Shown here: positions 316 through 17,845 of the stretch, piece by piece
Layout: the number at the start of each line of letters is the position of its first letter
Position numbering within the stretch: the stretch's first letter is position 1
The notes under the pieces: model-generated
Databases searched by the model: none
What the model was told of the DNA's origin: nothing
Seen by the model: the letters and a program-made list of their open reading frames with translations, nothing else
Source: Bacteroides uniformis
GTDB taxonomy: Bacteria; Bacteroidota; Bacteroidia; Bacteroidales; Bacteroidaceae
DNA: 64,000 bases
NCBI RefSeq assembly: GCF_025147485.1
Contig: NZ_CP102263.1
Coordinates: 1,873,501-1,937,500 of the forward strand
Direction: 5' to 3'
Position numbers and translations under genes: made by a program

Positions 316-1905
316 ATGAAGAAATTATATAAGATAACACCGTATGTTATGCTCGGTTTGATGGTAGCTGGATGTACAGATCTGGATACAGAACCGCTGA
401 GTTCGACTATTACATCTGACCAAAAGGAAGAAGTTGTTGAATCTGATCCTTCCAGATTGGAAGCCAGCGTAGCAGCTGTGGCTGCAAATTTCACCCAATA
501 TGCCAAAATCTACACAGAAGATGACAATGTGCATAGTGATATAGGTTATCCGACCATTATGCTGGCCACGGAATCAAGAGGTACGGACATGGTGGCAGAT
601 ATTACTGGTTATAACTGGTATTCCAATTCAGCCGATTACAGTGACTGCTTGAATACAAGTACAGCTACCATTGAATTCTGGGGTACATTGTACAATCAGA
701 TTTTTACAGCCAATAACGTAATCGGTACTGTAGATAACGAAACTGAAGATCCTACGTTACAATATTATCTGGCGCAGGCATTAGCTGTCCGTGCTTTTGA
801 CTATTTTACGTTGATACAGTTGTATCAGTTCAATTACAAAGGACATGAGAGCGCTATGGGTATGCCTTTGATTACAGAGCAGAATGCAACAGAAGTTGCA
901 GCCAATGGCTGCGCCCGTTCTACTGTGCAAGAAACTTATGATTTTATCTTGGCAGACCTGAATAAAGCTATTGAGCTGCTGACAGCCACTACAAAAGAAC
1001 GTGATGACAAGCGCTATGTCAGCTTGGATGTCGCTTACGGTATCCGTGCCCGTGTCTATCTGGCAATGCACAACTATGCGGAAGCTTTAAAGGATGCGGA
1101 AGCCGCACTGGCCAAAACTACTGCCACTCCATACTCCCGTGCTGATGTAAGCAAGCCTTCATTCATTAATATCGAAGACAATTCATGGATGTGGGGTATC
1201 TTGATTACAGAACAGGACCGTGTAAGTACAACCGGTATTTGTAATTTCCCTTCACATATGGGCTCTTTGAATTATGGTTATGCTTCTGTAGGTGGATGGC
1301 GTAGAATCAGTCCGAAACTCTATAGTGAGATTCCTGCCAGTGATGTCCGCAAGGGATGGTTCCTGAACGGTGAAGGTGTATCTGCCAATTTGCCTGCTGC
1401 GGCCCAAACATACATTACTGGGAAAAAGGCACCTGCCTATACACAAGTAAAGTATGGGGTGCTGAATGACCAATGGGGAACTGACAACAATGCTACGGAT
1501 ATAATATTGATGCGTGTTGAGGAAATGTATCTTATCAAGGCTGAGGCACAAGCTATGAGTGGTAATGTTAGTGGCGGTGTATCTACCCTTAACTCGTTTG
1601 TTACTGCATATCGTGACCCGTCTTATCAGTGTACAGCCACTACACCGGAAGCTGTGCAGGAAGCTGTTTGGCAACAACGTCGTCTTGAATTCTGGGGAGA
1701 AGGTATGGCATATTTTGATATTATGCGTCTGAACAAGGGAGTCAACCGTTTAGGCTGCGGCTTCCCGACTACTGCCGTATTTAATATTACAGCAGGTGAT
1801 CCGGTTCAGATTTACAGTATTCCTAATAAGGAAGTACAATATAACCCATTATTGGAGAACAATCCGCTGGTTTCGGCACCTACACCAATACCTGATGTAG
1901 AATAA
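316..1905 (+). CDS. SusD/RagB-family nutrient-binding outer-membrane lipoprotein (cassette 1)
   Basis: The 529-aa protein begins with a lipoprotein signal peptide ending VAGC (Cys20), and is expected to sit on the cell surface as the lid of the SusC channel. The helical TPR-like SusD fold is indicated by the family signature RVEEMYLIKAEAQA near residue 400 and by the C-terminal RRLEFWGEGMAYFDIMRLN stretch. It lies directly after the susC remnant and 30 bp before a second lipoprotein gene, so the three are probably one transcript. It is a distant homologue of the SusD of cassette 3 (same YPTIMLATE / YPSLMLAQTE block). The ligand cannot be predicted. Confidence 0.93.
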   Translation: MKKLYKITPYVMLGLMVAGCTDLDTEPLSSTITSDQKEEVVESDPSRLEASVAAVAANFTQYAKIYTEDDNVHSDIGYPTIMLATESRGTDMVADITGYNWYSNSADYSDCLNTSTATIEFWGTLYNQIFTANNVIGTVDNETEDPTLQYYLAQALAVRAFDYFTLIQLYQFNYKGHESAMGMPLITEQNATEVAANGCARSTVQETYDFILADLNKAIELLTATTKERDDKRYVSLDVAYGIRARVYLAMHNYAEALKDAEAALAKTTATPYSRADVSKPSFINIEDNSWMWGILITEQDRVSTTGICNFPSHMGSLNYGYASVGGWRRISPKLYSEIPASDVRKGWFLNGEGVSANLPAAAQTYITGKKAPAYTQVKYGVLNDQWGTDNNATDIILMRVEEMYLIKAEAQAMSGNVSGGVSTLNSFVTAYRDPSYQCTATTPEAVQEAVWQQRRLEFWGEGMAYFDIMRLNKGVNRLGCGFPTTAVFNITAGDPVQIYSIPNKEVQYNPLLENNPLVSAPTPIPDVE

Positions 1906-1935: not shown

Positions 1936-2889
1936 ATGAAATATATAAATAAGATACTTAGTCTGTTTGTCATCGCACTGATAGCTACCTCTTGCGATCC
2001 TGATGCAGAAAGTTATACTCCGGGTGAACTGGAAGACGGTAATCAAGGCATCTGCTTTGTGGGCAATTACACCCAAACAGTGGAAGTTGAGCCGGGAATA
2101 ACCTCTTTTGATTTAACTTTGACACGCTCCTTGACAGATGCTGCCGGTACGGTTGATGTTACTGTGATAAATAATGAAGAGAATATATTTGTATGCCCTT
2201 CCACTGTATCATTTGCTGCTGGAGAGAAAACAGCCAAGTTGACAGTTGAAACACCGTCAGCTGCCGAGGGTATCACTTATAATCTACAACTGGCTTTGAG
2301 TGGTAATGATGTCAGCAACTATTCTTCCGGATACCATGAAATATCAGTAAATTTTGCTATCTTGAAGTGGGAATCTATCGGTACCGGATACTATTTGGAC
2401 GGTACAGTTGCTAATTTCTTTGGCGTAGATCCGTCTGTTCCGATGGCTGTGGAAATTGAAAAAACTACAACTGCTACCAGTACACGTTTCCGTTTTGACA
2501 GTCCGTTTGCCAAAGTTGCGACTGCACAAGATGAGGTTGGCGGTTTCAACGGTTATCCCTTTAATGAAGAGGCTGATGTAGTTCCAGGTGAATATACTTT
2601 CGTAATTGATGTGACTAAAGAAGGTGCTTCTTTGAAACCGGTTCAATATGGTATGGATTGGGGATATGGTATGTTCAGCGGTGGTTCTGTATATGGCAAC
2701 CTATCTACTAATATAAATTCTTATCCTTTGGGAGTTTATAATGAAAAGGCCGGTAGTATTACCTTCCCAGCCAATTCGTTGTACGTAAGTATGGCTGACT
2801 ATCAAGACGGTGGTGCATATCCTTGTACCAACCCGTCTTATCTCTACTTGAGTGCGGAAGCATACCTTAACTCTTTGGAGACAGAGTAA
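1936..2889 (+). CDS. Surface lipoprotein of a SusC/SusD cassette, function unknown
   Basis: The 317-aa protein has a lipoprotein signal ending ATSC (Cys20). Residues 40-140 look like a beta-sandwich of the Calx-beta/Ig type (alternating strands, VEVEPGITSFDLTLTRSL). The second half starts with WESIGTGYYLDGTVANFFG and resembles the matching region (WLNIGIGYYASQLFG) of the third-cassette lipoprotein at 16990, so the two are homologous. The first start would be TTG-free; ATG at 1936 gives a normal signal peptide. In such loci this position usually holds a SusE/SGBP-like surface binding protein. That role is inference; no catalytic motif is visible. Confidence 0.75.
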   Translation: MKYINKILSLFVIALIATSCDPDAESYTPGELEDGNQGICFVGNYTQTVEVEPGITSFDLTLTRSLTDAAGTVDVTVINNEENIFVCPSTVSFAAGEKTAKLTVETPSAAEGITYNLQLALSGNDVSNYSSGYHEISVNFAILKWESIGTGYYLDGTVANFFGVDPSVPMAVEIEKTTTATSTRFRFDSPFAKVATAQDEVGGFNGYPFNEEADVVPGEYTFVIDVTKEGASLKPVQYGMDWGYGMFSGGSVYGNLSTNINSYPLGVYNEKAGSITFPANSLYVSMADYQDGGAYPCTNPSYLYLSAEAYLNSLETE

Positions 2890-2948: not shown

Positions 2949-2984
2949 CTTTAAATATTGATTCGTAGAGATTGAATCGTTAAT

Positions 2985-4211
2985 TTACAGTTTTTCTTTA
3001 TCCTCTGCCAACAAAAAGTTTCGCAGTGAAATCTGTTTAATTCCTTTGTAATTTCCCCCGCTTTGCATTTCATCCATTGTTACCACATATTTAGGGTAAT
3101 TGTCTGCTATTTCCAAAAGATTGCCAAATTCTCGCCTAACAGTTGCATCGTCGGGAAGCATATACGCTACTTGAATATAGATTTTATGGTCGTCTTTGGA
3201 AGCAATGAAATCAATTTCTTTATTACCACTCTTTCCGACATATACTTCATATCCATATCTTAACAAATCAATGCATACTACATTTTCCATTAACTTGTTG
3301 ATGTCTTTTCGAAAATCGAAATGCTGTATGGAATTATGTAATCCTAAATCTTCAAAATAATATTTCTCACCAATCTCAAAGATTTTCATCCCTTGGATTT
3401 CAGCTCGTTGAATTTTGTAAATAAAGAAACTATTGCACAGTGCCTTTAGATAGTTCAGAATTGTCTGCGTAGGAATGTTGACGTGTTGCGACTTTAAATA
3501 TTTACTAATATTCTGGGCAGAAAAAAGAGAACCGGTATTATCTATCAGATAAGCTACGAGATTCTCCAAAAAAGATACATTCCGGATTGATTCACGGGCA
3601 ACCACATCTTTTAGTAGGATAGTAGAGTAAACATTTCTCAAATACTCGAATATGACATTCTTGTCCATTGTTAGATTATGAATGTATGGCATACCTCCGA
3701 ATGTAAGATAGAGTTTTAAACTTTCGGTGGAATCTTGACATTGATTGAAAGTTAAGAATTCCCCGTAGCTAAGTGAATGAATGGGAAATTCTATATATCT
3801 TCCTGCCAATTGAGTAGCAAGTTCACTGGACAGCATTTTAGCATTACTTCCGGTGCAATAGATATCGCATTTATTTTCGTTCAATAAACTCCGCAGACAC
3901 AATTGGAATTCTTCAATCTCTTGGATTTCATCTACAAAAAGATAGTTATGATTATGCCCAGTAACCTTCTTTAAAACATATTGATAAAGATCCATGTAGT
4001 TCCTAATTTCCGTGAAGGCAAGTTGCTCTTTATCTACAAAAATGATATTGGCTTCCGGTATGTTTTTCTTTATGATATCTGATATCTGCAAAAGAATGTA
4101 GCTTTTACCTATCCTACGTTGGCCGGTTATTACTTTTATTATACTTTTATCAATAAACGGTTCAATTCTCCTTATGTATAAAGGGCGGGAGATATAATTT
4201 TTCATATTCAA
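2985..4211 (-). CDS. AAA+ ATPase with C-terminal DUF4143 domain (copy 1)
   Basis: The 408-aa cytoplasmic protein shows a Walker A motif GQRRIGKS at residues 30-37, a Walker B motif LFVDE at 91-95 followed by IQEIEEF, and a TGSNAKMLSSEL block at 120-132 typical of this prokaryotic AAA family. The C-terminal part carries NKEIDFIAS and IYIQVAYML, a PD-(D/E)XK-like arrangement seen in DUF4143 proteins. The biochemical role of the family is not settled. It is transcribed away from the truncated susC and converges with cassette 1. A copy 98.5% identical in protein lies at 10640. The perfect -7 box in front suggests this copy is expressed. Confidence 0.88.
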   Translation of the reverse strand: MNMKNYISRPLYIRRIEPFIDKSIIKVITGQRRIGKSYILLQISDIIKKNIPEANIIFVDKEQLAFTEIRNYMDLYQYVLKKVTGHNHNYLFVDEIQEIEEFQLCLRSLLNENKCDIYCTGSNAKMLSSELATQLAGRYIEFPIHSLSYGEFLTFNQCQDSTESLKLYLTFGGMPYIHNLTMDKNVIFEYLRNVYSTILLKDVVARESIRNVSFLENLVAYLIDNTGSLFSAQNISKYLKSQHVNIPTQTILNYLKALCNSFFIYKIQRAEIQGMKIFEIGEKYYFEDLGLHNSIQHFDFRKDINKLMENVVCIDLLRYGYEVYVGKSGNKEIDFIASKDDHKIYIQVAYMLPDDATVRREFGNLLEIADNYPKYVVTMDEMQSGGNYKGIKQISLRNFLLAEDKEKL

Positions 4212-4230
4212 ACATGATTTAGTTTATATA

Positions 4231-4238
4231 CAAAGATA
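4231..4238 (-). promoter_or_regulatory. -7 promoter box of ATPase copy 1
   Basis: On the minus strand the bases read TATCTTTG, a perfect match to the Bacteroides -7 consensus TAnnTTTG, 20 bp before the ATPase start codon. In the second copy the aligned bases (11886-11893) read TATCTTTT, so the conserved final G is lost there. Confidence 0.6.
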
Positions 4239-4246
4239 TAAAATAT

Positions 4247-4262
4247 TTCAATTATAATTGAA
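4247..4262. repeat. 16-bp perfect palindrome upstream of ATPase copy 1
   Basis: TTCAATTATAATTGAA is fully self-complementary and lies where the -33 region of the ATPase promoter would be. It is conserved unchanged in the second module (11902-11917), although bases around it have diverged. An operator for a dimeric regulator is a reasonable guess; A+T richness alone could also produce it. Confidence 0.55.
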
Positions 4263-4637
4263 TCTTGCCGTATATATTATATATTCATCAATTATAAATA
4301 ACATATGTAAAGCAAATATTTCTCAACAAAAAAATATTTTGGAACTTTTATGGATAAAATTTATCTTTCAAGATAAATTCCTCTATATAATCTATCGTTA
4401 TTCTTGAATAAAAAACATTTATTGGGTTAATTAGTACATCACCAATTAAAAGAGTAGAATGAAATGTTACAATAACGCGCTCATTATCAGCTTTTAATTA
4501 TTCAAAACGGTATGAAATGGGTACTTCGAGCCACTTACCTCCCTTTGCCATATACCTTTATAGATAATATACAATAGAATAAACTCTGTTCTATAGCAAA
4601 CGTAAACAATTGTTTTTTAGCAATATACACTTATTGT
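4263..4637. other. Non-coding spacer before truncated susC, no gene seen
   Basis: No open frame with a plausible start or signal peptide is visible in the spacer, and no remnant of the missing SusC N-terminus could be found in any frame. It holds one small inverted repeat (4360-4377, arms TTTATCTT/AAGATAAA) that is not kept in copy 2. I see no good TAnnTTTG box directed at the susC frame. Confidence 0.6.
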
Positions 4638-4672
4638 AGTTCCGCGAAAACTCTGGTAATTTCGTACATCGG
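4638..4672 (+). other. Shared susC 5' junction (candidate recombination site), copy 1
   Basis: Read in frame these bases give SSAKTLVISYIG, the normal end of the N-terminal domain of SusC, running straight into MQTQEV. The frame continues upstream only into spacer, with no start codon or signal peptide. The same bases occur at the same point before the other truncated susC (12293-12327) with few changes. Confidence 0.6.
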
Positions 4673-4673
4673 C

Positions 4674-7600
4674 ATGCAGACTCAAGAGGTTACAATTAAG
4701 CCGCATGTACGGGTTGTCATGCAGAGTGATACTGAACTTTTGGATGAAGTTGTAGTTGTTGCCTATGGTACTGCTACAAAAAGATCCTTCACAGGTTCCG
4801 CTACTGAAATTAAAGGAGACCGTATTGCTAACAAAAATCCGTCCGAATTATCTAAAGCGCTAACCGGTGAAGTAGCAGGTGTACAAGTTATTTCAACTAG
4901 TGGACAACCCGGCTCAAATGCAAGCATCAGAATTCGCGGTTTAGGTTCTGTAAATTCAAGCCGTGCTCCGCTGTATGTAGTGGATGGAATCCCCTTTGGT
5001 TCAGATTTAAGTGGAATTGATCCTTCAGACATAGAGTCAACTACCGTATTGAAGGACGCAACAGCAACAGCTCTATATGGTTCAAGAGCTGCCAATGGAG
5101 TAATTTTGCTGACCACCAAAAGAGGTAAAAAAGGAAAAACGCAGGTTGAGGCAAATGTAAAATATGGTATCAACACCCGTATAATTCCTCTTTATGACAC
5201 GATGGAAAATCCTGAAAGGTTTCTTGAACTGACATGGGAAGGTATTAAAAACAAATATATGTACCGCGCGAACAATCCTAAGGATGAAGCTACTGCCAAA
5301 CAATATGCAAGCGAAGACCTTTTTGATGCAGATTACGGTATTGCCCCCGTATATAATATGTGGAAGGCTGAAGGTAAAAATCTGATAGATCCTGTTACTG
5401 GAAGAATGAAGGCAGGTGTAATCCGCAAATTTACTCCGGAGAAATGGGAAGATTATATTTTCCGTACAGGAGAAAAAGTAGAAGCCAATGTTAAGATATC
5501 AGGAGGTAGCGACAAGTTATCACATTATACCTCTTTCGGTTACTTGAAAGATGAAGGATACTATATAGGTTCGGATTTTGAACGTTTTAATGCCCGTTCC
5601 AATCTGTCTCAAGACATCACTTCATGGTTGAAATCAAATGTTAATATGGCTTATAGCTATATGGAACTGAATAAGCCCGGTCAAGGTGACAACATGAACA
5701 ATGGTTTCCAATTCATTAATTTTATGCCTTCCATATTTCCGGTATTCCAACGTGATGCAGATGGCAATAAAATAAAGGATAATGTGGTCGGAGGATATCT
5801 GTATGATTATGGTATGGCTGAAGGTTATGGACGTCCTTACGCTTCAGGCGTAAATCCAGCCGGAGCGATTCAATTGGACAAGAATGAGTACCAGTCTCAT
5901 TCATTCAACGGAAATGCCATGTTTGAAGCAACTTTCTTGAAAGACTTCAAAGGAACGGTAAACTTTGGATTGCAATATCTTGGTACAAAAAACAATGAAT
6001 TGACAAATCCATATTATGGTGATGCAGAGGGGTTAGGACGTATTTTCAAAAACATGAGTACATTCTTCAGCTTCACGTCAAACCAGATATTGTCATGGAA
6101 GAAAAGTTTTGGTGTGCACAATCTCGATGCATTCGTTGCGCATGAATCTACATTCTACAAGTCATCTGACAACTATGGCCAGAAATCAAAGATTGTTCGT
6201 CCTAACAATACAGAATGGTCTAATGCTGTAATTATGGACTATATGGATTCTCAAACCTACGGGTTTGACATGGAAAGCTACTTCGGACAAATTAGATATG
6301 ATTATAACGATAAATATTTCTTTCATGGAACATTAAGACGTGATGGTTCATCACGTTTTGCCAAAGGGCAGAAATGGGGAACATTCGGTTCTATCGGCGC
6401 CGCCTGGGCCATCACTAACGAAAATTTCATGAAAGACGTGAGCTGGTTGAAGAATTTGAAATACAAGTTAAGTTGGGGTGTGTTGGGTAACCAAGACTTT
6501 ATCACCAATCCTACCATTGCAGGTTATTATCCTTACAATGATTTGTATACGATCGGTAACCTGAATGATGAAATCAGTTTTAGCTTTAAATATAAAGGTA
6601 ATCCTGATTTGACATGGGAACGCAGCGAAACATGGAATACTGGTATCGAGTTTAATATAGCCGATATTTTGGAAGGTGAAGTGGAATACTACAATAAGAC
6701 TACCAAAGATATGTTGTTCCTAAAGCAAGTATCTCCATCGCTGGGATATGCACAATACCCCGTCAATGACGGTAAAATGGTCAATAAGGGTCTCGAATTT
6801 TCTTTGGTGGCACATCTTGTGAAAACGAATGATATAAGTCTTGATTTACGTGTTAATGGTGGACATTATAAGAATAAAATGACCCAGATGCCTATGGATG
6901 ATACCACAGGAAAAGAAAAGCCATTGGAGATACAAGGTGCTTACGGATGGTCGAAAGGACATTCTCTGTATGATTTCTATATAAGAGAATATGCCGGTGT
7001 AGATCCAGAAACCGGTATGGCATTATACAACTCATACTATAATGTAAAAGCCGATGGAAGCAAGGACTTGATTACAGATATGGTAACTTACCAGCAAAAC
7101 AATAAAATAGAGCGTTTGGAAGTAGAAAAGACCTCCGATTATAACAACGCAACTAAGAAATATGTCGGGAAATCAGGTATTCCGACTTTACAAGGGGGAT
7201 TCGGTTTTGATTTAGCTGTTAAAGGTTTCGAATTAAATACGACTTTCTCCTATAGCTTAGGAGGATATGCTTACGACGGTGTATATGCTACATTAATGTC
7301 TAACAATACACCTGGTAGTGGAAACTGGCATAATGACATTGAAAATCGTTGGCAAAAGCCGGGTGATATAACAGACGTGCCACGTTTAACTTCCGGATAT
7401 GATGAATATACAAATGCATCTTCTACTCGGTTCATTACCAGTCGTTCTTATTTGAATTTATCCAATGTAAGATTATCCTACACATTCCCTAAAAAATGGA
7501 TGAATAGAATGAACATTGGTTCCTTGTCGGTTTATGTTTCCGGTGACAACCTGATGTTCATTTCGGCTCGTAAGGGATTTGTCTCAATGGCAGGAAATAC

Positions 7601-7697
7601 CGTCAGTACAGATCCTAATGAGGATTCCGGAGGCTCTGACAGAAGTCAGTATGCTCCATTGAGTACTATTATGGGAGGTATTAAGATTCAGTTCTAA
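4674..7697 (+). CDS. N-terminally truncated SusC-family receptor (cassette 2, probably silent)
   Basis: The 1007-aa frame carries the SusC motif ELLDEVVVVAYG at residues 21-32, the plug domain (SIRIRGLGSVNSSRAPLYVVDG), and a complete barrel ending GGIKIQF. Compared with the full-length SusC at 46732 it lacks about 78 residues: the whole signal peptide and most of the carboxypeptidase-regulatory-like domain. The codons just before the ATG still encode SSAKTLVISYIG, so the ATG is an internal methionine and the break lies at the spacer edge. Without a signal peptide the product could not reach the outer membrane. It may be a silent cassette awaiting recombination, or a pseudogene. The long intact frame favours the first. 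Confidence 0.85.
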   Translation: MQTQEVTIKPHVRVVMQSDTELLDEVVVVAYGTATKRSFTGSATEIKGDRIANKNPSELSKALTGEVAGVQVISTSGQPGSNASIRIRGLGSVNSSRAPLYVVDGIPFGSDLSGIDPSDIESTTVLKDATATALYGSRAANGVILLTTKRGKKGKTQVEANVKYGINTRIIPLYDTMENPERFLELTWEGIKNKYMYRANNPKDEATAKQYASEDLFDADYGIAPVYNMWKAEGKNLIDPVTGRMKAGVIRKFTPEKWEDYIFRTGEKVEANVKISGGSDKLSHYTSFGYLKDEGYYIGSDFERFNARSNLSQDITSWLKSNVNMAYSYMELNKPGQGDNMNNGFQFINFMPSIFPVFQRDADGNKIKDNVVGGYLYDYGMAEGYGRPYASGVNPAGAIQLDKNEYQSHSFNGNAMFEATFLKDFKGTVNFGLQYLGTKNNELTNPYYGDAEGLGRIFKNMSTFFSFTSNQILSWKKSFGVHNLDAFVAHESTFYKSSDNYGQKSKIVRPNNTEWSNAVIMDYMDSQTYGFDMESYFGQIRYDYNDKYFFHGTLRRDGSSRFAKGQKWGTFGSIGAAWAITNENFMKDVSWLKNLKYKLSWGVLGNQDFITNPTIAGYYPYNDLYTIGNLNDEISFSFKYKGNPDLTWERSETWNTGIEFNIADILEGEVEYYNKTTKDMLFLKQVSPSLGYAQYPVNDGKMVNKGLEFSLVAHLVKTNDISLDLRVNGGHYKNKMTQMPMDDTTGKEKPLEIQGAYGWSKGHSLYDFYIREYAGVDPETGMALYNSYYNVKADGSKDLITDMVTYQQNNKIERLEVEKTSDYNNATKKYVGKSGIPTLQGGFGFDLAVKGFELNTTFSYSLGGYAYDGVYATLMSNNTPGSGNWHNDIENRWQKPGDITDVPRLTSGYDEYTNASSTRFITSRSYLNLSNVRLSYTFPKKWMNRMNIGSLSVYVSGDNLMFISARKGFVSMAGNTVSTDPNEDSGGSDRSQYAPLSTIMGGIKIQF

Positions 7698-7715
7698 CAA
7701 TAAAATCATTTGAAT

Positions 7716-9209
7716 ATGAGAAATGTAATATATAAAATAGCAGCTTGTTCTGCATTAGTAGCCTTGGTGCTTTCTGGCTGTAAAGAATCTTTTCTGGAGG
7801 AAGATCCAAATGGATATATTTCATCTGACCAGATAAAAGAAAATGCAGTGTGGAATCCTAATATCATGTTAGGTCAGGCATTAGGTACGTATTCCACAAC
7901 ATTTGCCTGGCAGACAGGCGGTACGACGAATCACGACGATTTCGGACAAAAATCCATTGATATTGCCACAGATTTAATGAGTGGGGATCTGGCAATGAGC
8001 GGAGAAACCTACGGCTGGTTTAGCGATGCAGCTAGATTGCAGTGTAATACTACCACAAAAAATAGAACCTACATGCTGTGGAGGTATTATTACCGCATCA
8101 TCAAGGCCTGCAATGAAATATTTGACACTGTAGGAGGAGATGAAAGTGTACCGGCTAATGAGGATAACCAAAATTATTATGCACAAGCAAAAGCTTTGAG
8201 GGCTCATTCGTATTTCAATTTGGTGAATTTATATGCAAAACCTTACGATATTGATAAAAATGCTAAGGCCATACCTCTTTACCGTTCTCAAACCACAGCA
8301 GAGACATTAGGACTCTCCACAGTGGAGGAAGTGTATGAACGGGTTATTATCGACTTGAAGGAATCAATAAATATTTTGGAAGAGTTGGAATCAGCAGGTA
8401 TTGGTCGTCCCAACGGCACTAAGGACCAAATCGACCAATGGACAGCTAAAGGAATACTTGCCTATGTTTATTTGACCAAAGGTGAATATGAGAATGCTGC
8501 TGCATTAACTTCCGATATTATCAATAACTCAGGATATCCTTTGATGAGTGAAACTGAAATTATCGAATCTGGATTCCGGAGTATCAATATCGGTTCATGG
8601 ATGTGGGCATTTGATATTACCAAAGATAACACCGGAGGTTTGCCCACATTCTGGGGACAGGTAGATTATTTCACTTATAGCTACTGTTCTGCAGGTGATT
8701 ATAAAATGATAGACCATAATCTGTATAATGAAATACCTGAAACAGATACTCGTAAACAGTGGTTTCATCCGTCTGTATTGATTAGCTGGTATAAATTTTA
8801 TGATGCCGGAAGAAAAGCAATGGGAGACCGTACATGGACAAATGATATTGTTTACATGCGAGTTGAAGAGATGTACCTGATAAATGCTGAAGCCAATGCA
8901 CGGGCAAATCATCTGCCCGAGGCAAAAGCAGCATTGAAGGCTCTATTAGAACAGCGGGATCAGGCCACGGCTGCAGAAGTGGACAATATGAATGCTGATC
9001 AATTACTGGAAAACATATACTACAACTGGCGTGTAGAAATGTGGGCCGAAGGACGAGGTTTACTTACCTTGAAACGTTTCCACAAATCAATGGTACGTGG
9101 TGACAACAACTACGCATTGACTGGTGAAACAATCTCATACGATGACTCCAGATTGATCTTTGAAATTCCAGAGCGTGAAGTAACGAATAATCCCAATTTG
9201 CAGAAATGA
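7716..9209 (+). CDS. SusD/RagB-family lipoprotein (cassette 2)
   Basis: The 497-aa protein starts at ATG 7716, giving the signal peptide MRNVIYKIAACSALVALVLS and a lipobox Cys22; a TTG two codons earlier is less likely. The SusD signature RVEEMYLINAEANARA and a C-terminal WRVEMWAEGRGLLTLKRFHK place it in the SusD/RagB family. It follows the truncated susC by 18 bp and must share its transcript, so it is probably expressed only if that susC is. It has no third lipoprotein gene after it, unlike cassettes 1 and 3. The binding ligand is unknown. Confidence 0.92.
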   Translation: MRNVIYKIAACSALVALVLSGCKESFLEEDPNGYISSDQIKENAVWNPNIMLGQALGTYSTTFAWQTGGTTNHDDFGQKSIDIATDLMSGDLAMSGETYGWFSDAARLQCNTTTKNRTYMLWRYYYRIIKACNEIFDTVGGDESVPANEDNQNYYAQAKALRAHSYFNLVNLYAKPYDIDKNAKAIPLYRSQTTAETLGLSTVEEVYERVIIDLKESINILEELESAGIGRPNGTKDQIDQWTAKGILAYVYLTKGEYENAAALTSDIINNSGYPLMSETEIIESGFRSINIGSWMWAFDITKDNTGGLPTFWGQVDYFTYSYCSAGDYKMIDHNLYNEIPETDTRKQWFHPSVLISWYKFYDAGRKAMGDRTWTNDIVYMRVEEMYLINAEANARANHLPEAKAALKALLEQRDQATAAEVDNMNADQLLENIYYNWRVEMWAEGRGLLTLKRFHKSMVRGDNNYALTGETISYDDSRLIFEIPEREVTNNPNLQK

Positions 9210-9251
9210 TAAAGTGCCACATTAGATTGTGCAAATCAGATGAATAAAAGA

Positions 9252-9288
9252 GGGAGAGTATCTAAATTTAGAATACTCTCCTTTTTTA
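9252..9288 (+). terminator. Intrinsic terminator after cassette 2
   Basis: GGAGAGTAT and ATACTCTCC form a 9-bp stem, extended inside by the self-complementary TCTAAATTTAGA, and are followed by six T. It lies about 45 bp after the susD stop. Confidence 0.85.
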
Positions 9289-9361
9289 ATATAACGAAAT
9301 CTGGTTCTTGTTGTATAAAGAGGGCAACACAAATCATTGCAGATGCACTGACATATCAATC

Positions 9362-10500
9362 TTATTTAGACTGCTTCAATAACCATATTTCAAAGAATTT
9401 ATCGTAAACCTTGTATTCTCCAAGTTCACAAGTAACAAAATCCTTGTCCAACAATCCTTTTATAGCTCCTTGTACTGAGCTGGCTGTCAATTTATAGGTT
9501 TTCAAGAATCTGGAAGAAGTTATTTCCCTTGCTTTTCCTTCTTTGCAAATGGCAAACAATACCTCCTTTTGTTTGGGAGGAAGTTGATAAAGAAGAGAGG
9601 AATAAGTAAAATTCAACTGAGACTAAATGTTTTCGATCGCTATGCTCACTTTGTCTGCCGTACAAATTTCACCTGTAGCTGTCATTGCATACAATGAGTT
9701 GGAGATGAATTGAATATACCATGTAATGCCCTCAAAACGTTCATATACGTTCTGAACAGTTTCTTCTGTAATGTCTTTATTGGCTATGAGGAAATGTTTC
9801 CTAATAAACTTTGTGTAAGTTCCTATGTCTATTGGATGTAATTCCATGATGGCTGTACTTTGATAGAAAGGGCGTGCTGGACTTGTGAATATTTCGCCCA
9901 TCATATGCCGTTGGGAACCTGCATAAATAAATCTTGCATTTGCGCAATGCTGAATATGGGTACGCAATACAGCTTCAATATTTTTTCCGGATATTTGGCA
10001 ATAGCTTGAAATTCGTCAATAGCCACCAGGCAGGGCTTGTCGGCCTTCTCCAAATAATAAAAAATTTCATCCAAAGTAATAGAAGGAGTTTTTATATCTC
10101 TCATCTCCAAATTCCAACCGGGATTTCCTGCAAAATCAAATGAAATTCCCGCCCGAAGCGATGACAAGCAACTTAAAAACAAATCCCACGCTTTTCTACC
10201 TCGTGGTTTCAGACCATTCATAATTCCTTTGCCAAGCTCAAAAACAAACTCTTGAAGATTCTTAGTCGCATATATATCAATCAAGAAAATATAATATTCC
10301 TTTTCGATATGTTTTTTGATGAAAACAATGTTCTATTAAGCCCGTCTTTCCTAAACGACGAGAAGATATTAAAGCTACATTGTTACCATTTGTGATATAA
10401 CGGGTTAATGTTCCGGTTTCAGCTACACGGTCACAAAAATATTCAGCGGATATATATCCATTGGTTATGAAAGGGTATTCTTCTCCATAAAGTGAATGCT
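9362..10500 (-). pseudogene. Decayed AAA ATPase gene (second ATPase family)
   Basis: Reading three minus-strand frames in turn reconstructs one ATPase of about 375 aa: an N-terminal FITNGYISAEYFCDR block, Walker A-like SSRRLGKTG, IDIYATKNLQEFVFELGKG, Walker B LVAIDEF, a sensor region FIYAGSQRHMM, and a winged-helix-like C-terminus. Three lesions break it: an extra base in an A-run near 10311-10316, a missing base in an A-run near 9982-9987, and an in-frame TAG at 9623-9625. No ATG is evident at its start. It differs from the DUF4143 ATPases on either side. Homopolymer sequencing error could explain the two frameshifts but not the stop codon. Confidence 0.8.
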
Positions 10501-10639
10501 TTATACAAAAAAAATTATAATCTTATTATAATGCAAATATCACAATGCTTTTGTATCGATTCTCCAACTTTGTTTCATATAATCTGTCAGAGGAAATCTG
10601 TTGATTTACTCTTCTCATATTGGAAATTAAATTATAGAT

Positions 10640-11866
10640 TTACAATCTTTCTTTATCCTCTGCCAACAAAAAGTTTCGCAGTGAAATCTGTTTAATTCCT
10701 TTGTAATTTCCCCCGCTTTGCATTTCATCCATTGTAACTACATATTTGGGGTAATTGTCTGCTATTTCCAAAAGATTGCCAAATTCTCGCCTAACAGTTG
10801 CATCATCGGGAAGCATATATGCTACTTGGATATAGACTTTATGGTCGTCCTTGGAAGCAATGAAATCAATTTCCTTATTGCCACTCTTTCCGACATATAC
10901 TTCATATCCATATCTTAATAAATCAATGCATACAACATTTTCCATTAACTTGTTGATGTCTTTTCGAAAATCAAAATGCTGTATGGAATTATGTAATCCC
11001 AAATCTTCAAAATAATATTTCTCACCAATCTCAAAGATTTTCATCCCTCGGATTTCAGCTCGTTGAATTTTGTAAATAAAGAAACTATTGCACAGTGCCT
11101 TTAGATAGTTCAGAATTGTCTGCGTGGGAATGTTGACGTGTTGCGACTTTAAATATTTACTAATATTCTGGGCAGAAAAAAGAGAGCCGGTATTATCTAT
11201 CAGATAAGCTACGAGATTCTCCAAAAAAGATACATTCCGGATTGATTCACGTGCAACCACATCTTTTAGTAGGATAGTAGAATAAACGTTTCTCAAATAC
11301 TCGAATATGACATTCTTGTCCATTGTTAGATTATGAATGTATGGCATACCTCCGAATGTAAGATAGAGTTTTAGACTTTCGGTGGAGTCTTGGCGTTGAT
11401 TGAAAGTTAAGAATTCCCCATAGCTAAGTGAGTGAATGGGAAATTCTATATATCTTCCTGCCAATTGAGTAGCAAGTTCACTGGACAGCATTTTAGCATT
11501 ACTTCCGGTGCAATAGATATCACATTTATTTTCGTTCAATAAACTCCGCAGACACAATTGGAATTCTTCAATCTCTTGGATTTCATCTACAAAAAGATAG
11601 TTATGATTATACCCAGTAACCTTCTTTAAAACATATTGATAAAGATCCATGTAGTTCCTAATTTCCGTGAAGGCAAGTTGCTCTTTATCTACAAAAATGA
11701 TATTGGCTTCCGGTATGTTTTTCTTTATGATATCTGATATCTGTAAAAGAATGTAGCTTTTACCTATCCTACGTTGGCCGGTTATTACTTTTATTATACT
11801 TTTATCAATAAACGGTTCAATTCTCTTTATGTATAAAGGACGGGAGATATAATTTTTCATATTCAA
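10640..11866 (-). CDS. AAA+ ATPase with C-terminal DUF4143 domain (copy 2)
   Basis: This 408-aa protein differs from copy 1 (2985-4211) at six positions: residue 14, the TGYNHNY segment near 87, NQRQD, AEIRG, HKVYIQ, and the penultimate residue. Walker A (GQRRIGKS), Walker B (LFVDE) and the DUF4143 EIDFIAS motif are intact. Its promoter differs: the -7 box has become TATCTTTT. The protein is better conserved between copies than the adjoining spacer, which suggests selection on the protein or gene conversion. It is again divergent from a truncated susC. The role is unknown; a part in maintaining or rearranging the cassettes would be speculation. Confidence 0.88.
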   Translation of the reverse strand: MNMKNYISRPLYIKRIEPFIDKSIIKVITGQRRIGKSYILLQISDIIKKNIPEANIIFVDKEQLAFTEIRNYMDLYQYVLKKVTGYNHNYLFVDEIQEIEEFQLCLRSLLNENKCDIYCTGSNAKMLSSELATQLAGRYIEFPIHSLSYGEFLTFNQRQDSTESLKLYLTFGGMPYIHNLTMDKNVIFEYLRNVYSTILLKDVVARESIRNVSFLENLVAYLIDNTGSLFSAQNISKYLKSQHVNIPTQTILNYLKALCNSFFIYKIQRAEIRGMKIFEIGEKYYFEDLGLHNSIQHFDFRKDINKLMENVVCIDLLRYGYEVYVGKSGNKEIDFIASKDDHKVYIQVAYMLPDDATVRREFGNLLEIADNYPKYVVTMDEMQSGGNYKGIKQISLRNFLLAEDKERL

Positions 11867-11901
11867 ACATGATTTAGTTTATATGAAAAGATATAAAATA
11901 T

Positions 11902-11917
11902 TTCAATTATAATTGAA
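11902..11917. repeat. 16-bp perfect palindrome upstream of ATPase copy 2
   Basis: Identical to the palindrome at 4247-4262 and at the same place relative to the ATPase gene, while bases on both sides differ between the copies. Confidence 0.55.
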
Positions 11918-12292
11918 TATTTCCATGTATATTCCACATTCATACATTATAAATAATATATGTAAACTAAATATTTCTCAACAAAAAAGAATTTTGGGAC
12001 TTTTATGGATAAAATCTATATTTCAAGATAAATTCCTCTATATAATTTATCGTTATTCTTGAATAAAAAACATTTGTTGGGTTAATTAGTACATCACAAA
12101 TTAAAAGGGTAGAATGAAATTTAATAATAACGTGCTTATTATCAGCTTTTAATTATTCAAAATGGTATGAAATGGGTACTTCAAACCACTTACCTCCCTT
12201 CGCCATATACCTTTATATAGAATATATAATAGAGTAAGCCTTGTTTTATAATGATTGTAAATTATTAATTTTCAGCAATATACATATATTGT
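11918..12292. other. Non-coding spacer before the second truncated susC, no gene seen
   Basis: This is the counterpart of 4263-4637. No gene is seen in it. The frame leading into susC is closed by TAA at 12266-12268 and has no start codon after it, so no alternative N-terminus with a signal peptide exists here. Confidence 0.6.
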
Positions 12293-12327
12293 AGTTCCGC
12301 GAAAACTCTGGTAATTTCGTATATTGG
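12293..12327 (+). other. Shared susC 5' junction (candidate recombination site), copy 2
   Basis: The stretch from AGTTCCGCGAAAAC through TGGTAATTTCGTA is identical to that at 4638-4665 and encodes SSAKTLVISYIG in frame with the susC that follows. Confidence 0.6.
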
Positions 12328-12328
12328 T

Positions 12329-15304
12329 ATGCAGACCCAGGAGGTGGCAATAAAATCCAGCGTAAAAGTGGTGATGAAGTCTGATACTGAGATGCTTGAT
12401 GAGGTAATGGTGGTCGCTTTCGGTACAGCAAAGAAGTCTGCATTTACGGGTTCGGCTAAGGTGGTTGGTACCGAAAAGCTGGAGCAGTCGCAAGTGACGA
12501 ATGTTACCGATGCTTTGGCAGGTGCTGTGCCGGGTGTGACATTGACTTCCAATGACGGTGCTCCAGGTGCAAAATCATCCATCAAGATTCGTGGTTTTAG
12601 TTCTATCAATGCAAAGAATGACCCTCTGATTATTGTGGACGGCGCTCCTTATAGCGGTGATATTAATAATATCAATCCTAACGACGTTGAGTCAATGACA
12701 GTATTGAAGGATGCAGCTTCGAATGCACTTTACGGTGCTCGTGGTGCTAATGGTGTAATTATCATCACTACCAAAAGAGCCAACATGTCGGGAGAGGCTA
12801 AGGTGACTTTTGATGCTAAGTGGGGTGCTAACACTCGAGCGTTGCAGAAATATGAAGTGATTGACAATCCTGGCATGTACTACGAGATGCATTATCGTGC
12901 CATGAACAATTATTATAAGTCAACGGGAATGAATGACCAGGCTGCATGGCTTGAGGCAAACAAGAATTTGTTTGGCTCCAACGGTGGATTGGGATACAAT
13001 GTATATACGGTTCCCGATGGGCAATTCCTCATCGGCCAGAACGGTAAGCTCAACCCCAACGCTACATTGGGTAGAGTGACGAACTATAAAGGACGTGATT
13101 ATCTGCTGACTCCGGATGATTGGGAAGATGTAGGAATGCGTACCGGTCTGCGTCAGGAATACAACTTCTCGGTGAGCGCAGCCAATGAAAAGTCCTCTTT
13201 CTATGTTTCTTTAGGTTATCTTGGAAATGAGGGTATCACTGAAGGCTCTGACCTGAAACGTTTGACAGGCCGTTTGAAAGCCGACTATCAGGCAAAGAAG
13301 TGGTTGAAGATTGGTGGTAATATGGGATATGCACGTTTTGATTCTAACTCGTTGAGTAACAATGGTACCAGTTCGTCTACCGGTAATATATGGGCGTTTG
13401 TTACCCAAATGGCTCCCATCTATCCCGCCTACGTGCGCAATGCTGACGGCAGCATCATGGTGGATAATAATGGTATTGGAATGATGGACTACGGTAGTGG
13501 TATCAATGCAGGTATGCAGCGTCCTTTCATTGCTGATGCCAACCCTATTCTAGACAATAAACTAAATACCAGAAACTCTGAAGGAAATGCCATTAACGGC
13601 AACGCCTTTGTAGATATAACTCCTATAGAAGGCCTAAAGGTGACATTCAATGGTGCTTTCAACTTGGATGAGACACGTCATAGTTACGTTTACAATCCTT
13701 ACTACGGGCAGTTCGACTCCACTGGCGGTACAGTGAGTAAGTATCATACACGTACTTACGATTACAACCTGCAACAACTTGTTTCTTATGCCCGTTCGTT
13801 TGGCGACAATAACTTCGATATTCTTTTAGGTCACGAATATTATGATTATCGCTACTATGAACTTGGGGCCAGCAAGTCGCAGATGTTCTCTCAAGGCAAT
13901 AAGGAATTGGATGGTGCCATTATCGACGGACAAGGTGCTTCTTCCTATAAAGAGCGTCGTAACAATGAAGGTTTCTTCGGCCGTTTGCAATACAATTATG
14001 ACGAACGCATCTTCGGCTCGGCTTCTTTGCGTCGTGATGCTTCCAGCCGTTTCCATCCGGACCATCGCTGGGGTACATTCTGGTCGGTAGGCGGTGCGTG
14101 GCTTATCAACAAAGAAAGCTGGTTTGATGCTTCATGGGTGCAGGAACTGAAGCTGAAGGCTTCTATTGGTTCACAAGGTAATGACAATATCGGTGACTTC
14201 CTCTATACGGATAGATTTAACATTATCAACTCTAACAACAGCCTTGGTACTTCATTTAAATCTAAGGGCACTAAAGACATCACTTGGGAAACCAACACTA
14301 ACTTCAATATCGGTGCAGAGTTCCAGTTGTGGAACCGTGTAACCGGTAGCATCGAGTACTACAGACGTAAGACTTCGGATATGTTGTTCTCATTTACCGT
14401 GGCTCCATCATTGGGTTATGCTTCCTATATGGACAACGTTGGTAACATGGTCAATAGTGGTGTGGAAATGGACTTCAATGTGAATATCTTCGATACACGT
14501 AACTTTACGTGGGATGTGAATGTGAACATTTCAACCTTGAAGAACCGTATTACGATGCTTGATCCTGATAAGTTGATTACTACTGAGTATACAGCTGATG
14601 GAAAAGGATATAAGGGCTATTCTAACGGAAGCTTCTTCATTGGTGAAGATTTGTCTATGTTTACATGGCGCTTGAAGGAGTATGCCGGAGTGAATGAAAA
14701 GGGTGAGTCTTTGTTCTATAAGAATGTCAAGGACGAGGCCGGCAATATCACCGGACGTGAAACGACTACGAATCATGCTCAGGCTGACTATTACATCACA
14801 GAGGAAAGCTCAATACCTAAAGTGTATGGTGGTTTCGGTACCAAACTGAAAGTCTATGGCGTGGACTTTGGCATAAACTTCACTTACCAGATTGGTGGTA
14901 AGCAATATGATGGTACGTATGCTTACTTTATGTCGTCACCTTATGGTACGGCTGGTTACAACTACCATAAGGATTTGCTGAACTCATGGACTCCTGAGAA
15001 CACAAATACTAATATCCCTCGTTTCCAGATGAACGACCAATATTCAGGGGCAATGTCTACGCGCTTCTTGACAAATGCAAGCTTCTTGAATATCCAGAAT
15101 ATTAATGTGGGCTACACGTTGCCTTCCAAGTGGACAAGAAAGTTGGCCATCAACTCATTGCGTGTGTATATGTCGGCAGAAAATGTTTTCTATTGGTCTA
15201 AACGTAAAGGGTTCGACCCACGTCAGTCATACGACGAGACAACCAATGCTACTTTCTATTCACCGATGCGTACCATCTCTGGTGGTGTGTCATTTGAGTT
15301 CTAA
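12329..15304 (+). CDS. N-terminally truncated SusC-family receptor (cassette 3, probably silent)
   Basis: The 991-aa frame starts MQTQEVAIKSSVKVVMKSDT and reaches the SusC motif EMLDEVMVVAFG at residue 21. The plug region (SIKIRGFSSINAKNDPLIIVDG) and the full barrel with a terminal GGVSFEF follow. As in cassette 2, the signal peptide and most of the N-terminal domain are missing, and the sequence joins the repeated spacer at the same codon. Beyond the first 25 or so residues the two truncated receptors are clearly different proteins, as expected for alternative cassettes sharing a joining site. It is followed by susD and a lipoprotein gene. Confidence 0.85.
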   Translation: MQTQEVAIKSSVKVVMKSDTEMLDEVMVVAFGTAKKSAFTGSAKVVGTEKLEQSQVTNVTDALAGAVPGVTLTSNDGAPGAKSSIKIRGFSSINAKNDPLIIVDGAPYSGDINNINPNDVESMTVLKDAASNALYGARGANGVIIITTKRANMSGEAKVTFDAKWGANTRALQKYEVIDNPGMYYEMHYRAMNNYYKSTGMNDQAAWLEANKNLFGSNGGLGYNVYTVPDGQFLIGQNGKLNPNATLGRVTNYKGRDYLLTPDDWEDVGMRTGLRQEYNFSVSAANEKSSFYVSLGYLGNEGITEGSDLKRLTGRLKADYQAKKWLKIGGNMGYARFDSNSLSNNGTSSSTGNIWAFVTQMAPIYPAYVRNADGSIMVDNNGIGMMDYGSGINAGMQRPFIADANPILDNKLNTRNSEGNAINGNAFVDITPIEGLKVTFNGAFNLDETRHSYVYNPYYGQFDSTGGTVSKYHTRTYDYNLQQLVSYARSFGDNNFDILLGHEYYDYRYYELGASKSQMFSQGNKELDGAIIDGQGASSYKERRNNEGFFGRLQYNYDERIFGSASLRRDASSRFHPDHRWGTFWSVGGAWLINKESWFDASWVQELKLKASIGSQGNDNIGDFLYTDRFNIINSNNSLGTSFKSKGTKDITWETNTNFNIGAEFQLWNRVTGSIEYYRRKTSDMLFSFTVAPSLGYASYMDNVGNMVNSGVEMDFNVNIFDTRNFTWDVNVNISTLKNRITMLDPDKLITTEYTADGKGYKGYSNGSFFIGEDLSMFTWRLKEYAGVNEKGESLFYKNVKDEAGNITGRETTTNHAQADYYITEESSIPKVYGGFGTKLKVYGVDFGINFTYQIGGKQYDGTYAYFMSSPYGTAGYNYHKDLLNSWTPENTNTNIPRFQMNDQYSGAMSTRFLTNASFLNIQNINVGYTLPSKWTRKLAINSLRVYMSAENVFYWSKRKGFDPRQSYDETTNATFYSPMRTISGGVSFEF

Positions 15305-15323
15305 ACCTAATATATAGATTACA

Positions 15324-16958
15324 ATGATTATGAAGAAGAATATATTCAAACTATTTTCGGTTATGGTCGTATCGGCCACGGTATTGACCGGCTGTATAGA
15401 AGAGGTTTTTCCCGAAGATTCTACAGCGACCTCCGATCAGATTGGTGCATCGGCAACAGCGATTGAGGCTTCGCTTAATGGCTTGCCATCGCAAATGGTA
15501 CAAGGCTATCTAGTGTACGGTAAGCAAACACATGAGACCGACCTTGCTTATCCCTCATTGATGTTGGCCCAGACAGAACTGCTGGGTGATGTCGTGGCTA
15601 CGGATTACGGATATGACTGGTGGTGGCGCTTCAATGCCAATAATGGTATGAACGACACCGGCTATTATTCATATTTGCCTTACTTCACCCTATATAAGTT
15701 CGTTAAATCGGCCAATGACGTGATTGCGGCCGTTGATGTGACTGATCCCACAATTACCGATGAAATGCGTGGGCTTGGAAGTATAGCCCATGCTTTCCGT
15801 GCATTGGACTATTATACGCTGATGGTACTTTTCGAACCGGTAGAAAACATCTATACCGATTGTAGCAAGGTACTGGGGCTGACGGTGCCCATCGTGACTG
15901 AGGCAACAACTAACGACATTGCGAAGAGCAATCCGCGTGCAACCCACGAAGAATTGGTGAATTTCATTCTTGCCGACCTTGACAAGGCAGAGATAGGTCT
16001 GGAGTCTTATACACCTGTCAGTAAGAACTTCCCTGACTTGGCGGTCGTATATGGTCTGAAGGCCAAAGTATATATGTGGGATGGTCAGTTTGCTAAAGCT
16101 GCCGAGTATGCCCGCAAGGCTATTGATAAGTCGGGAGCAACACCTATGAGCGAATCACAGTGGCATAATCCCACTACCGGTTTCAATACGGCTACTTCTG
16201 CATGGATGTGGTACCTTCACCCCACGGCTTCCAATATGGGTAATCTTGCTAATTTCATTGGTCACATTTCCAATGAAGCGGATTGGGGATATGCTTCTTT
16301 GTCTAAGCTCCAGATGGCACGTTCACTTTATGACGCGATTCCTGCTACCGATTTCCGCAAATATTCTTACCTTGACCCGGACAGAAGTACTTACGCTTAC
16401 CAGTCAGTGAGAGGCAATGCATGGCTGGATGAACAACCGGATTATATGTCATTGAAGTTCCGCCCCGTGGGTGGTGACTATAACACTTATTCTGTGGGTG
16501 CGGCTGCAGATATTCCCGTGATGCGTGTGGAAGAGATGTATCTCATAGAGGCTGAAGCAGTAGGTGCCAGCCAGAATGTGGCAGCAGGCGTACAGTTGTT
16601 GAATAACTTTATGAAGCAGTACCGCCAGAGCAATTACAATTTCAGTACGGGTGATTTGCGTAATTTCCAACTTGAGGTGTTGAAACAGATGCGTATCGAG
16701 TTCTGGGGTGAGGGAATCGCATTCCCCACGGCTAAACGTCTGAAACCGGATGTCATTCAGAATTATGAGGGTACCAACTTTATAGAAGATATCTTCAAGA
16801 TAAACTGTAAAGGTGTGAAGCCCAACTGGACATTGATGATTCCTAAGACCGAGGTCGATTCAAATACTGCCCTTCAGGGAATGAACAATCCGGACCCGTC
16901 CGGTGCTATTGCTAAACGTCCTACTCCGATAGGGGAGTTTGCACCGGGTAACAATTAA
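15324..16958 (+). CDS. SusD/RagB-family lipoprotein (cassette 3)
   Basis: The 544-aa protein has a lipoprotein signal ending VLTGC; ATG 15330 is an equally plausible start two codons in. It carries the SusD signature RVEEMYLIEAEAVGAS and a C-terminal QMRIEFWGEGIAFPTAKRLK. It lies 19 bp after the truncated susC and 31 bp before the next lipoprotein gene, so the three would be co-transcribed. Similarity to the SusD of cassette 1 in the YPSLMLAQTE and SNPRATHEELVNFILADLDKA regions suggests cassettes 1 and 3 share an origin. Confidence 0.92.
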   Translation: MIMKKNIFKLFSVMVVSATVLTGCIEEVFPEDSTATSDQIGASATAIEASLNGLPSQMVQGYLVYGKQTHETDLAYPSLMLAQTELLGDVVATDYGYDWWWRFNANNGMNDTGYYSYLPYFTLYKFVKSANDVIAAVDVTDPTITDEMRGLGSIAHAFRALDYYTLMVLFEPVENIYTDCSKVLGLTVPIVTEATTNDIAKSNPRATHEELVNFILADLDKAEIGLESYTPVSKNFPDLAVVYGLKAKVYMWDGQFAKAAEYARKAIDKSGATPMSESQWHNPTTGFNTATSAWMWYLHPTASNMGNLANFIGHISNEADWGYASLSKLQMARSLYDAIPATDFRKYSYLDPDRSTYAYQSVRGNAWLDEQPDYMSLKFRPVGGDYNTYSVGAAADIPVMRVEEMYLIEAEAVGASQNVAAGVQLLNNFMKQYRQSNYNFSTGDLRNFQLEVLKQMRIEFWGEGIAFPTAKRLKPDVIQNYEGTNFIEDIFKINCKGVKPNWTLMIPKTEVDSNTALQGMNNPDPSGAIAKRPTPIGEFAPGNN

Positions 16959-16989
16959 CCAATGAACTAACTTTTAATAGAATTTGTAT

Positions 16990-17766
16990 ATGAATAAGAT
17001 ATTCAATAAATTGTTTTTGGGCTTGGCCGTATGCGGTTTGGCTATGACGGCTTGTTCAGACGGTGTGGAGTGGGAGCCTTCTCCGGTTCCTACCGAGGGT
17101 GTACAAGCTTATATTTATGCTGATAACACTGATTTGACTTATTATCCGAATGATGAACAGGTTTTTGTGGTCAAAATCGGCCGTCAGAAAACAGATGCGG
17201 CTGCATCTATTCGCTTGACTACAGATGCGGAGAACGTAACAGTGCCGACAACGGTTGATTTTGCTGCCGGTGAAGCACTCAAAGAAGTAAAGATTGCGTT
17301 TGACATAGCTGTGGGTACTACTGCATCTTATACAATTACCATTCCTGAAGAAGATTCCTATGTTTATGGTTCACCCAAGGTGACGATAAAAATAAAGCGT
17401 GACTATACTTGGCTCAATATAGGTATAGGCTACTATGCATCTCAATTATTTGGCGAGGGTTGGGATCAACCTGTACTGAAGGCTAAAGAGGCTAATATCT
17501 ATAAGCTGGAAGATTGCATTACGAAAGGATATCCCATCATGTTTACGCTAAGCGATGACAATCAAGAACTGATAGGTTGGGATCCTCAACCTACTGGTTA
17601 TGACAAGACGGATTATGGTATGCTATATTTTGCAGCTGCAGGTATGGAGCGTAAAGGGAACGTGTTGTCTTTCCCGATGCAGGGCTTAGTAATACTTGAC
17701 GGTGGTAAATGGGGAGTACTGTATCAGGGATTCACGGAAACGTTGGAGATGCCGGAAGGGTTCTGA
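16990..17766 (+). CDS. Surface lipoprotein of a SusC/SusD cassette, function unknown
   Basis: Starting at ATG 16990 the protein has 258 aa and a lipoprotein signal MNKIFNKLFLGLAVCGLAMTAC (Cys22); a TTG two codons upstream is less likely. An N-terminal beta-rich domain (FVVKIGRQKTDAAASIRL, VDFAAGEALKEVKIAF) resembles a Calx-beta-like sandwich, followed by a region starting WLNIGIGYYASQLFG. It matches the overall plan of the 317-aa lipoprotein of cassette 1 but is shorter. No enzymatic motif is visible. A role as an accessory surface ligand-binding protein is inferred from its place. Confidence 0.75.
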   Translation: MNKIFNKLFLGLAVCGLAMTACSDGVEWEPSPVPTEGVQAYIYADNTDLTYYPNDEQVFVVKIGRQKTDAAASIRLTTDAENVTVPTTVDFAAGEALKEVKIAFDIAVGTTASYTITIPEEDSYVYGSPKVTIKIKRDYTWLNIGIGYYASQLFGEGWDQPVLKAKEANIYKLEDCITKGYPIMFTLSDDNQELIGWDPQPTGYDKTDYGMLYFAAAGMERKGNVLSFPMQGLVILDGGKWGVLYQGFTETLEMPEGF

Positions 17767-17797: not shown

Positions 17798-17845
17798 AAA
17801 TGGCATGTAAGATGAAGTTCGACTTCATTTTACATGCCATTTTTC
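17798..17845 (+). terminator. Intrinsic terminator after cassette 3
   Basis: A 21-bp stem starting AAATGGCATGTAA, with one G-T pair, closes on a 3-nt loop and runs into TTTTT. It lies 31 bp after the lipoprotein stop and separates the cassette array from hflX. Confidence 0.88.

Follow-up and report, generated by a model that had tools for sequence, protein, structure and literature searches.

A probable six-cassette SusC/SusD shufflon in Bacteroides uniformis organised around a single exchangeable gene start

SusC/SusD pairs are located at the cell surface of gut Bacteroides and determine which glycans these bacteria take up. In this study we focus on a group of susC and susD genes of Bacteroides uniformis, whose genome of 4.63 megabases (Mb) is assembled as one contig (C1), and which was noticed in a stretch of 64,000 nucleotides (nt) of that contig (C1:1873501-1937500, hereafter the window). 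The 37.5 kilobases (kb) preceding the window were examined as well. From its sequence, we propose with a probability of roughly 0.88 that the locus is a shufflon of six SusC/SusD cassettes, in which a gene start of 67 codons would be swapped among the susC bodies through DNA inversion by the adjacent tyrosine recombinase. The cassettes are named A (reverse, far left), E (carrying the gene start), B, C, D (window position 4674) and F (window position 12329).

In the proposed mechanism, the 67-codon gene start (hereafter the exon), with its predicted signal peptide and promoter, is joined to one body, and the five other bodies lie headless at the same 15-nt in-frame site. The recombinase would bring together the site at the exon and an oppositely oriented one beyond the recombinase gene, and the DNA between the paired sites would invert, carrying along the recombinase, the promoter and the exon. 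The exon would then stand in frame with a new body and its susD, the former body being parked headless. The block of exon, promoter and recombinase is flanked by two arms of cassettes facing outward from it, and as each inversion turns the block round, the other arm would become reachable next. The products would be complete SusC proteins that have the signal peptide in common, as well as a large part of the CarboxypepD_reg domain, and that differ in plug, barrel and partner lipoproteins. The neighbouring recombinase probably does the cutting, the joined susC/susD pair would be transcribed from the exon promoter, and the switch may serve to change which nutrients are taken up or how far the cell is exposed to phage and antibodies.

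The six bodies all start at copies of one 28-nt core, with 0-2 mismatches and in frame, four copies being forward and two reverse (Table 1). A degenerate pattern of this core matches six times genome-wide, always inside C1:1855399-1885821, and the same pattern read backwards, used as a control, gave no match in this genome or in any other genome listed, which ruled out a chance occurrence of the site. Indeed, six clustered copies are far beyond chance. From the AGT of AGTTCCGCGAAAACT, every copy, the five headless ones included, opens a reading frame of 944-1019 codons. Immediately before the site, the complete gene has the exon and CCA, whereas the five headless genes have TGT, 1 to 20 open codons past a stop; this TGT is not general, different codons being found in other species. 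The only base common to the exon-type and headless flanks is the A preceding the 28-nt core. AGTT-CCGCGAA-AACT forms a dyad with a 7-nt asymmetric middle, which would be the kind of core suited to a tyrosine recombinase, and AGTTCCGCGAAAACT (15 nt) is our candidate for the recombinase core.

The window contains two of the six cassettes as headless full bodies, D and F, which a preliminary description had presented as intact susC genes deprived of 5' end and signal peptide from the same point on. Both are indeed intact open reading frames (ORFs) of the SusC family, with plug and barrel present and the CarboxypepD_reg domain missing (Pfam), and no signal peptide is seen by eye at their called starts (MQTQEV). 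In the frame of the complete gene, D is open for 1019 codons from window position 4638 and F for 1003 codons from 12293, and a stop codon precedes the site by 20 and 8 open codons, respectively. The shared spacer that the description had recognised holds up at 94.7% identity across 1708 nt (2983-4690 against 10638-12345), as does the divergence of the two genes after a near-identical start: past the site, the bodies can be aligned over 136 nt only (73%). Outside the window, the description had further expected a complete susC that carries the SSAKTLVISYIG junction as well, together with a tyrosine recombinase upstream and perhaps an inverted partner. The genome does hold such a complete 5' end, on cassette E; the recombinase gene is divergent from it across a gap of 453 nt, and the two reverse copies of the core provide the inverted partner (Table 1).

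In the complete gene, the Pfam match to CarboxypepD_reg covers residues 26-107 and the recombination site begins at residue 68. The recombinase carries R, HxxR, GH and Y motifs that look conserved; an NCBIfam search with it gave 10 matches, 0 of them above the cut-off of that database, hence no name. The gap between exon and recombinase contains a sole TAnnTTTG (TATATTTG), 56 nt 5' of the exon ATG, which we take to be the Bacteroides -7 element. Inversion of a promoter was considered as the switch and is not favoured: copies of the site are missing from this gap, and the inverted repeats there are weak, the best being 24 nt at 71%. In all six cassettes a susD follows the susC, the susD of C and D being those supported by Pfam.

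Comparison with other genomes shows bodies in both states. In Bacteroides muris (ex Afrizal et al. 2022), where the comparison covered the longer or closer matches, cassette F and its surroundings are 96% identical across 8 kb. Moreover, body A (98%, 900 nt) is preceded there by a flank whose sole counterpart in this genome is that of site B (89%, 690 nt), the changeover is located at the site, and the exon is reversed relative to the left flank when compared with this genome. This is one inversion junction between the two species. Contig C22 of B. muris ends, and contig C139 starts, with an identical stretch of 55 nt counted from the site. A culture in mixed states was considered as a cause, but the observation was not used, since this 55-mer occurs twice in L078 and a repeated 55-mer alone can break an assembly.

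Database proteins, for which the lists comprise the best 120 of 7800, 7997 and 6157 matches, give a second line of evidence. Protein P0121 (1070 amino acids) consists of the first 80 residues of this genome's complete SusC joined to the F body, from which it departs at 6 of 991 positions. Among the relatives of F (best 120 of 7997), 34 have the exon and 86 do not; when scored without the first eight residues, the body of the exon-bearing proteins equals a headless form in 18 of 34, is one residue off in 8, and has no partner listed in the remaining 8. P0130, with exon, and its headless counterpart P0126, listed on 464 contigs, are an example of such a pair. A cassette present both joined to the exon and headless is also found within one genome, G073 (C1:2804177-2830648), where the expressed cassette also exists as a headless copy in inverted orientation (8.2 kb, 99.7% identity), starting exactly at the site. 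The alternative junctions in B. muris and among the database proteins agree with the silent-cassette system put forward in the preliminary description.

The arrangement recurs widely in the genus. Relatives of the recombinase (E <= 1e-60) occur in 95 of 158 Bacteroides genomes, and an exon starting with MKRKLM lies near the recombinase in 30 of 30 loci (one per genome, being the loci returned of the 95 genomes with a match). In all 28 readable loci, the distance from the exon start to the site is exactly 67 codons; in the two others, the site is masked (L051) or the frame is broken (L062). Mean identity is 87% for the exon (378 pairs, 28 loci), 88% for the first 20 residues from the start of the site and 47% for residues 21-120 (276 pairs), with 26 loci in the analysis by columns. 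Compared in this way, the sequences are those of a constant start and variable bodies.

From the 158, 23 genomes that have the recombinase and 6 that lack it were chosen by hand, mostly near-complete ones (G101, B. fluxus, was reached through a locus). Opposed sites are found near the recombinase in 18 of the 23, and the site pattern is absent from 6 of 6 genomes lacking the recombinase. Sixteen genomes were mapped, namely this one and all others with opposed sites except G108 and G110 (15 of 17). In a count made by hand, 39 of 39 headless sites in these genomes point away from the nearest recombinase; sites whose frame is open for less than 200 codons are not on the map (G121 has two), and two of the four sites in G117 lie beside a gap of 100 N. 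The 16 genomes have 17 close relatives of the recombinase (two in G121), each with one divergent exon, and a distant homologue of 105 bits in G159 has no exon. In G121, two exon-recombinase modules stand in inverted orientation at the same locus (C1:1482000-1521999) with about 3 kb in common at 99%, which gives the appearance of an array with two rotors.

Several observations weigh against the proposed shufflon. Sites of the same arm are direct repeats, so that the cassettes between them should be excised; this calls either for an enzyme that prefers inversion or for duplication and import to make up the losses, as the copy in G073 and the cassette content of B. muris could illustrate. The arm-binding domain of the recombinase (Arm-DNA-bind_5) is matched 20 times in the genome, so that another enzyme could act and the neighbouring one is the best, not the sole, candidate. 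Among the 23 genomes with the recombinase, the pattern used found a single site in G017 and G081 and none in G160, G161 and G030. In B. muris, the upstream flank of F is closer to the D spacer (93%) than to the F spacer (88%), which may reflect switching or gene conversion, and for bodies B and E no long match was obtained among the 40 of 97 candidates scored in this draft assembly. More than inversions therefore separates the two genomes, and their cassette content differs too. Finally, the six best relatives of cassette D (6/6, best 120 of 7800 matches) are headless, which fits most cassettes being silent at any time, yet is a negative result for body D.

The main competing explanation is that RecA-dependent homologous recombination or one-way gene conversion joins the exon to the bodies, the site being a mere spot of high homology. 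The likeness of the bodies, which extends about 110-160 nt beyond the site, and the inverted headless copy in G073 would be in line with it, as would protein P0006, in which F residues 1-293 (1 difference) are continued by the final 721 residues of D (0 differences). Unless P0006 is an assembly chimera, it is a mix made within the gene and points to homologous recombination as a further way of mixing bodies. However, homology hardly extends to the other side of the core, where the two kinds of flank have one base in common, and both the constant presence of the recombinase beside the exon and the absence of the site pattern where the enzyme is missing speak against this explanation. Moreover, the outward orientation of all 39 headless sites is required by inversion and not by conversion. 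For conversion of the pilin silent-cassette type, in which copying is non-reciprocal and the donor is kept, the B. muris junction fits an inversion, but the expressed cassette of G073 does have a headless copy at 99.7%. We regard homologous recombination or conversion as an unlikely origin of the junctions.

Still less probable, in our opinion, is a reading of the headless susC genes as decayed remnants, or as errors of the assembly, that constitute no reserve. The bits of ATPase genes between the cassettes are indeed decayed, but the five headless frames are open throughout, the exon is attached in other records to bodies identical to headless ones, and the layout is the same across 16 genomes; this layout and the single 4.63-Mb contig rule out an assembly artefact. 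That headless genes are expressed in place, from starts about 36 nt beyond the site and through an unusual export route, can practically be dismissed, even if gene callers place the MQTQEV start in many database forms, as a SusC barrel without a signal peptide would not reach the outer membrane and identical bodies are known with a signal peptide attached.

If inversion is retained as the mechanism, a broader picture can be sketched tentatively, although we stop short of favouring it: across much of Bacteroides, the locus could be a two-armed rotor, whose block flips between outward-facing arrays and whose constant exon serves an open-ended, refreshable library of SusC/SusD pairs. The outward orientation would then be a design rule that keeps each cassette reachable by inversion, and survival of the arrays would require a recombinase that prefers inversion to excision.

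Other elements accompany the cassettes. Genes or pieces of genes for AAA_14-DUF4143 ATPases recur in the spacers preceding C, D and F, including remnants at window positions 9362-10284 (-) and at L008:12475-13041 (-). An 88% match to the remnant region precedes a cassette of B. fluxus (L014:4334-5555), and one cassette in G057 has an intact relative before it. Between cassettes B and C lies a gene matching Zeta_toxin and AAA_33 in Pfam (L008:13353-13961, +), and a 94% copy of this stretch precedes a cassette of B. muris. Directly after cassette F, a near-perfect 21-nt inverted repeat with a 3-nt loop (window 17798-17842) is possibly the terminator of F, and an intergenic pair of 28-nt inverted repeats made of AGTTATGAGTTATAAGTTATG-like units, 38 nt apart, is found at window positions 19215-19309. 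Two relatives of D appear rearranged in the barrel region, P0001 (1058 amino acids) by an internal repeat and P0005 (901 amino acids) by an internal deletion. An Rfam search of L007 and L008, which did not extend to the window, returned one tRNA and one thiamine pyrophosphate riboswitch in L007 and nothing in L008.

Table 1 Features of the SusC/SusD locus (C1, contig coordinates; window, positions in the 64,000-nt stretch; aa, amino acids)
Feature	Position	Strand	Basis or remark
Headless susC A	C1:1852593-1855409	-	SusD-like gene follows
Complete susC (cassette E), 1052 aa	C1:1858163-1861321	-	CarboxypepD_reg, plug, barrel
Tyrosine recombinase	C1:1861775-1862965	+	Arm-DNA-bind_5, Phage_int_SAM_5, Phage_integrase domains
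Headless susC B	C1:1863846-1866761	+	SusD-like gene follows
Headless susC C	C1:1870818-1873784	+	Runs into window; SusD-like gene follows
28-nt core, reverse copies	C1:1855399, 1861092	-	Sequence match
28-nt core, forward copies	C1:1863811, 1870804, 1878139, 1885794	+	Sequence match
Headless susC C, 3' end	window 3..284	+	Whole ORF C1:1870818-1873784, mostly left of window
susD of cassette C	window 316..1905	+	Pfam SusD-like_3 and SusD_RagB
Lipoprotein-like ORF, cassette C	window 1936..2889	+	Without Pfam match
Repeated spacer preceding cassette D	window 2983..4690	+	94.7% identical to 10638-12345
AAA_14-DUF4143 ATPase gene within D spacer	window 2985..4211	-	Pfam
Putative recombination site D	window 4638..4666	+	Proposed core AGTTCCGCGAAAACT at 4638-4652
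Headless susC D, 1007 aa	window 4674..7697	+	Frame open from 4638
susD of cassette D	window 7710..9209	+	Pfam
Repeated spacer preceding cassette F	window 10638..12345	+	Alignment with D spacer
Second AAA_14-DUF4143 ATPase gene	window 10640..11866	-	Pfam; near-identical to 2985-4211
Putative recombination site F	window 12293..12321	+	Proposed core at 12293-12307
Headless susC F, 991 aa	window 12329..15304	+	Same body attached to exon in P0121
SusD-like gene, cassette F	window 15324..16958	+	Position and resemblance, no Pfam scan
Lipoprotein-like ORF closing cassette F	window 16984..17766	+	Starts like a lipoprotein; without Pfam match

If one of six receptors is indeed chosen by inversion, the assembled genome is misleading, and five of the six genes resemble truncated pseudogenes. 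With the constant exon and the 15-nt site as a simple sequence handle, hidden receptor libraries could be found throughout the genus and their states read from sequencing data that already exist. It may also be asked why arrays of directly repeated sites do not delete themselves.

SusC/SusD shufflons are already established in B. fragilis, where paired susC/susD genes lie in multiply invertible segments under the control of a tyrosine recombinase (PMC4747536, PMC11852207, PMC5729914), named Tsr0667 (PMC4747536, PMC11852207). The segments described here likewise carry susC/susD pairs. The Tsr0667 motif AGTYYYN4GDACT, which was not found in the literature searched, agrees by eye with AGTTCCGCGAAAACT at 14 of 15 positions. 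In region EE of B. fragilis, the repeats overlap the susC start codon and the array lies downstream of an invertible promoter (PMC5729914), whereas the junction here is at codon 68 of a gene with a constant exon, and the gap between exon and recombinase offers only the weak inverted repeats mentioned above; some of these differences may lie in the description only. Nutrient-receptor shufflons of B. thetaiotaomicron are mentioned in PMC12548429, which cites other work, and there as here alternative receptors would be switched by DNA rearrangement; descriptions of known systems were also drawn from PMC12632263.

The Rci shufflon of plasmid R64 is presented along with other multiple-inversion systems in PMC11852207. 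As in that system, the recombinase would pick one of several segments to be joined to a constant part of a gene; R64 varies the C-terminal segments of a protein of the pil operon, whereas here about 93% of the receptor would change together with the partner genes, and, unlike those of R64, the sites lie in two outward-facing arms. Passages of PMC12118408, PMC10994844, PMC8042965 and PMC11868660 contain nothing on this type of locus. Neither a constant exon of 67 codons that ends at a junction within the gene nor an outward orientation as a rule for the arms was met in the passages of the literature searched, although the primary papers may describe either. The locus has sites in both orientations, a recombinase gene, and alternative segments in frame with one constant part, as a shufflon does. 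Very probably, it works like the shufflons of B. fragilis and B. thetaiotaomicron and is of the same kind, its less familiar parts being the constant exon with its intragenic junction and the outward-facing arms.

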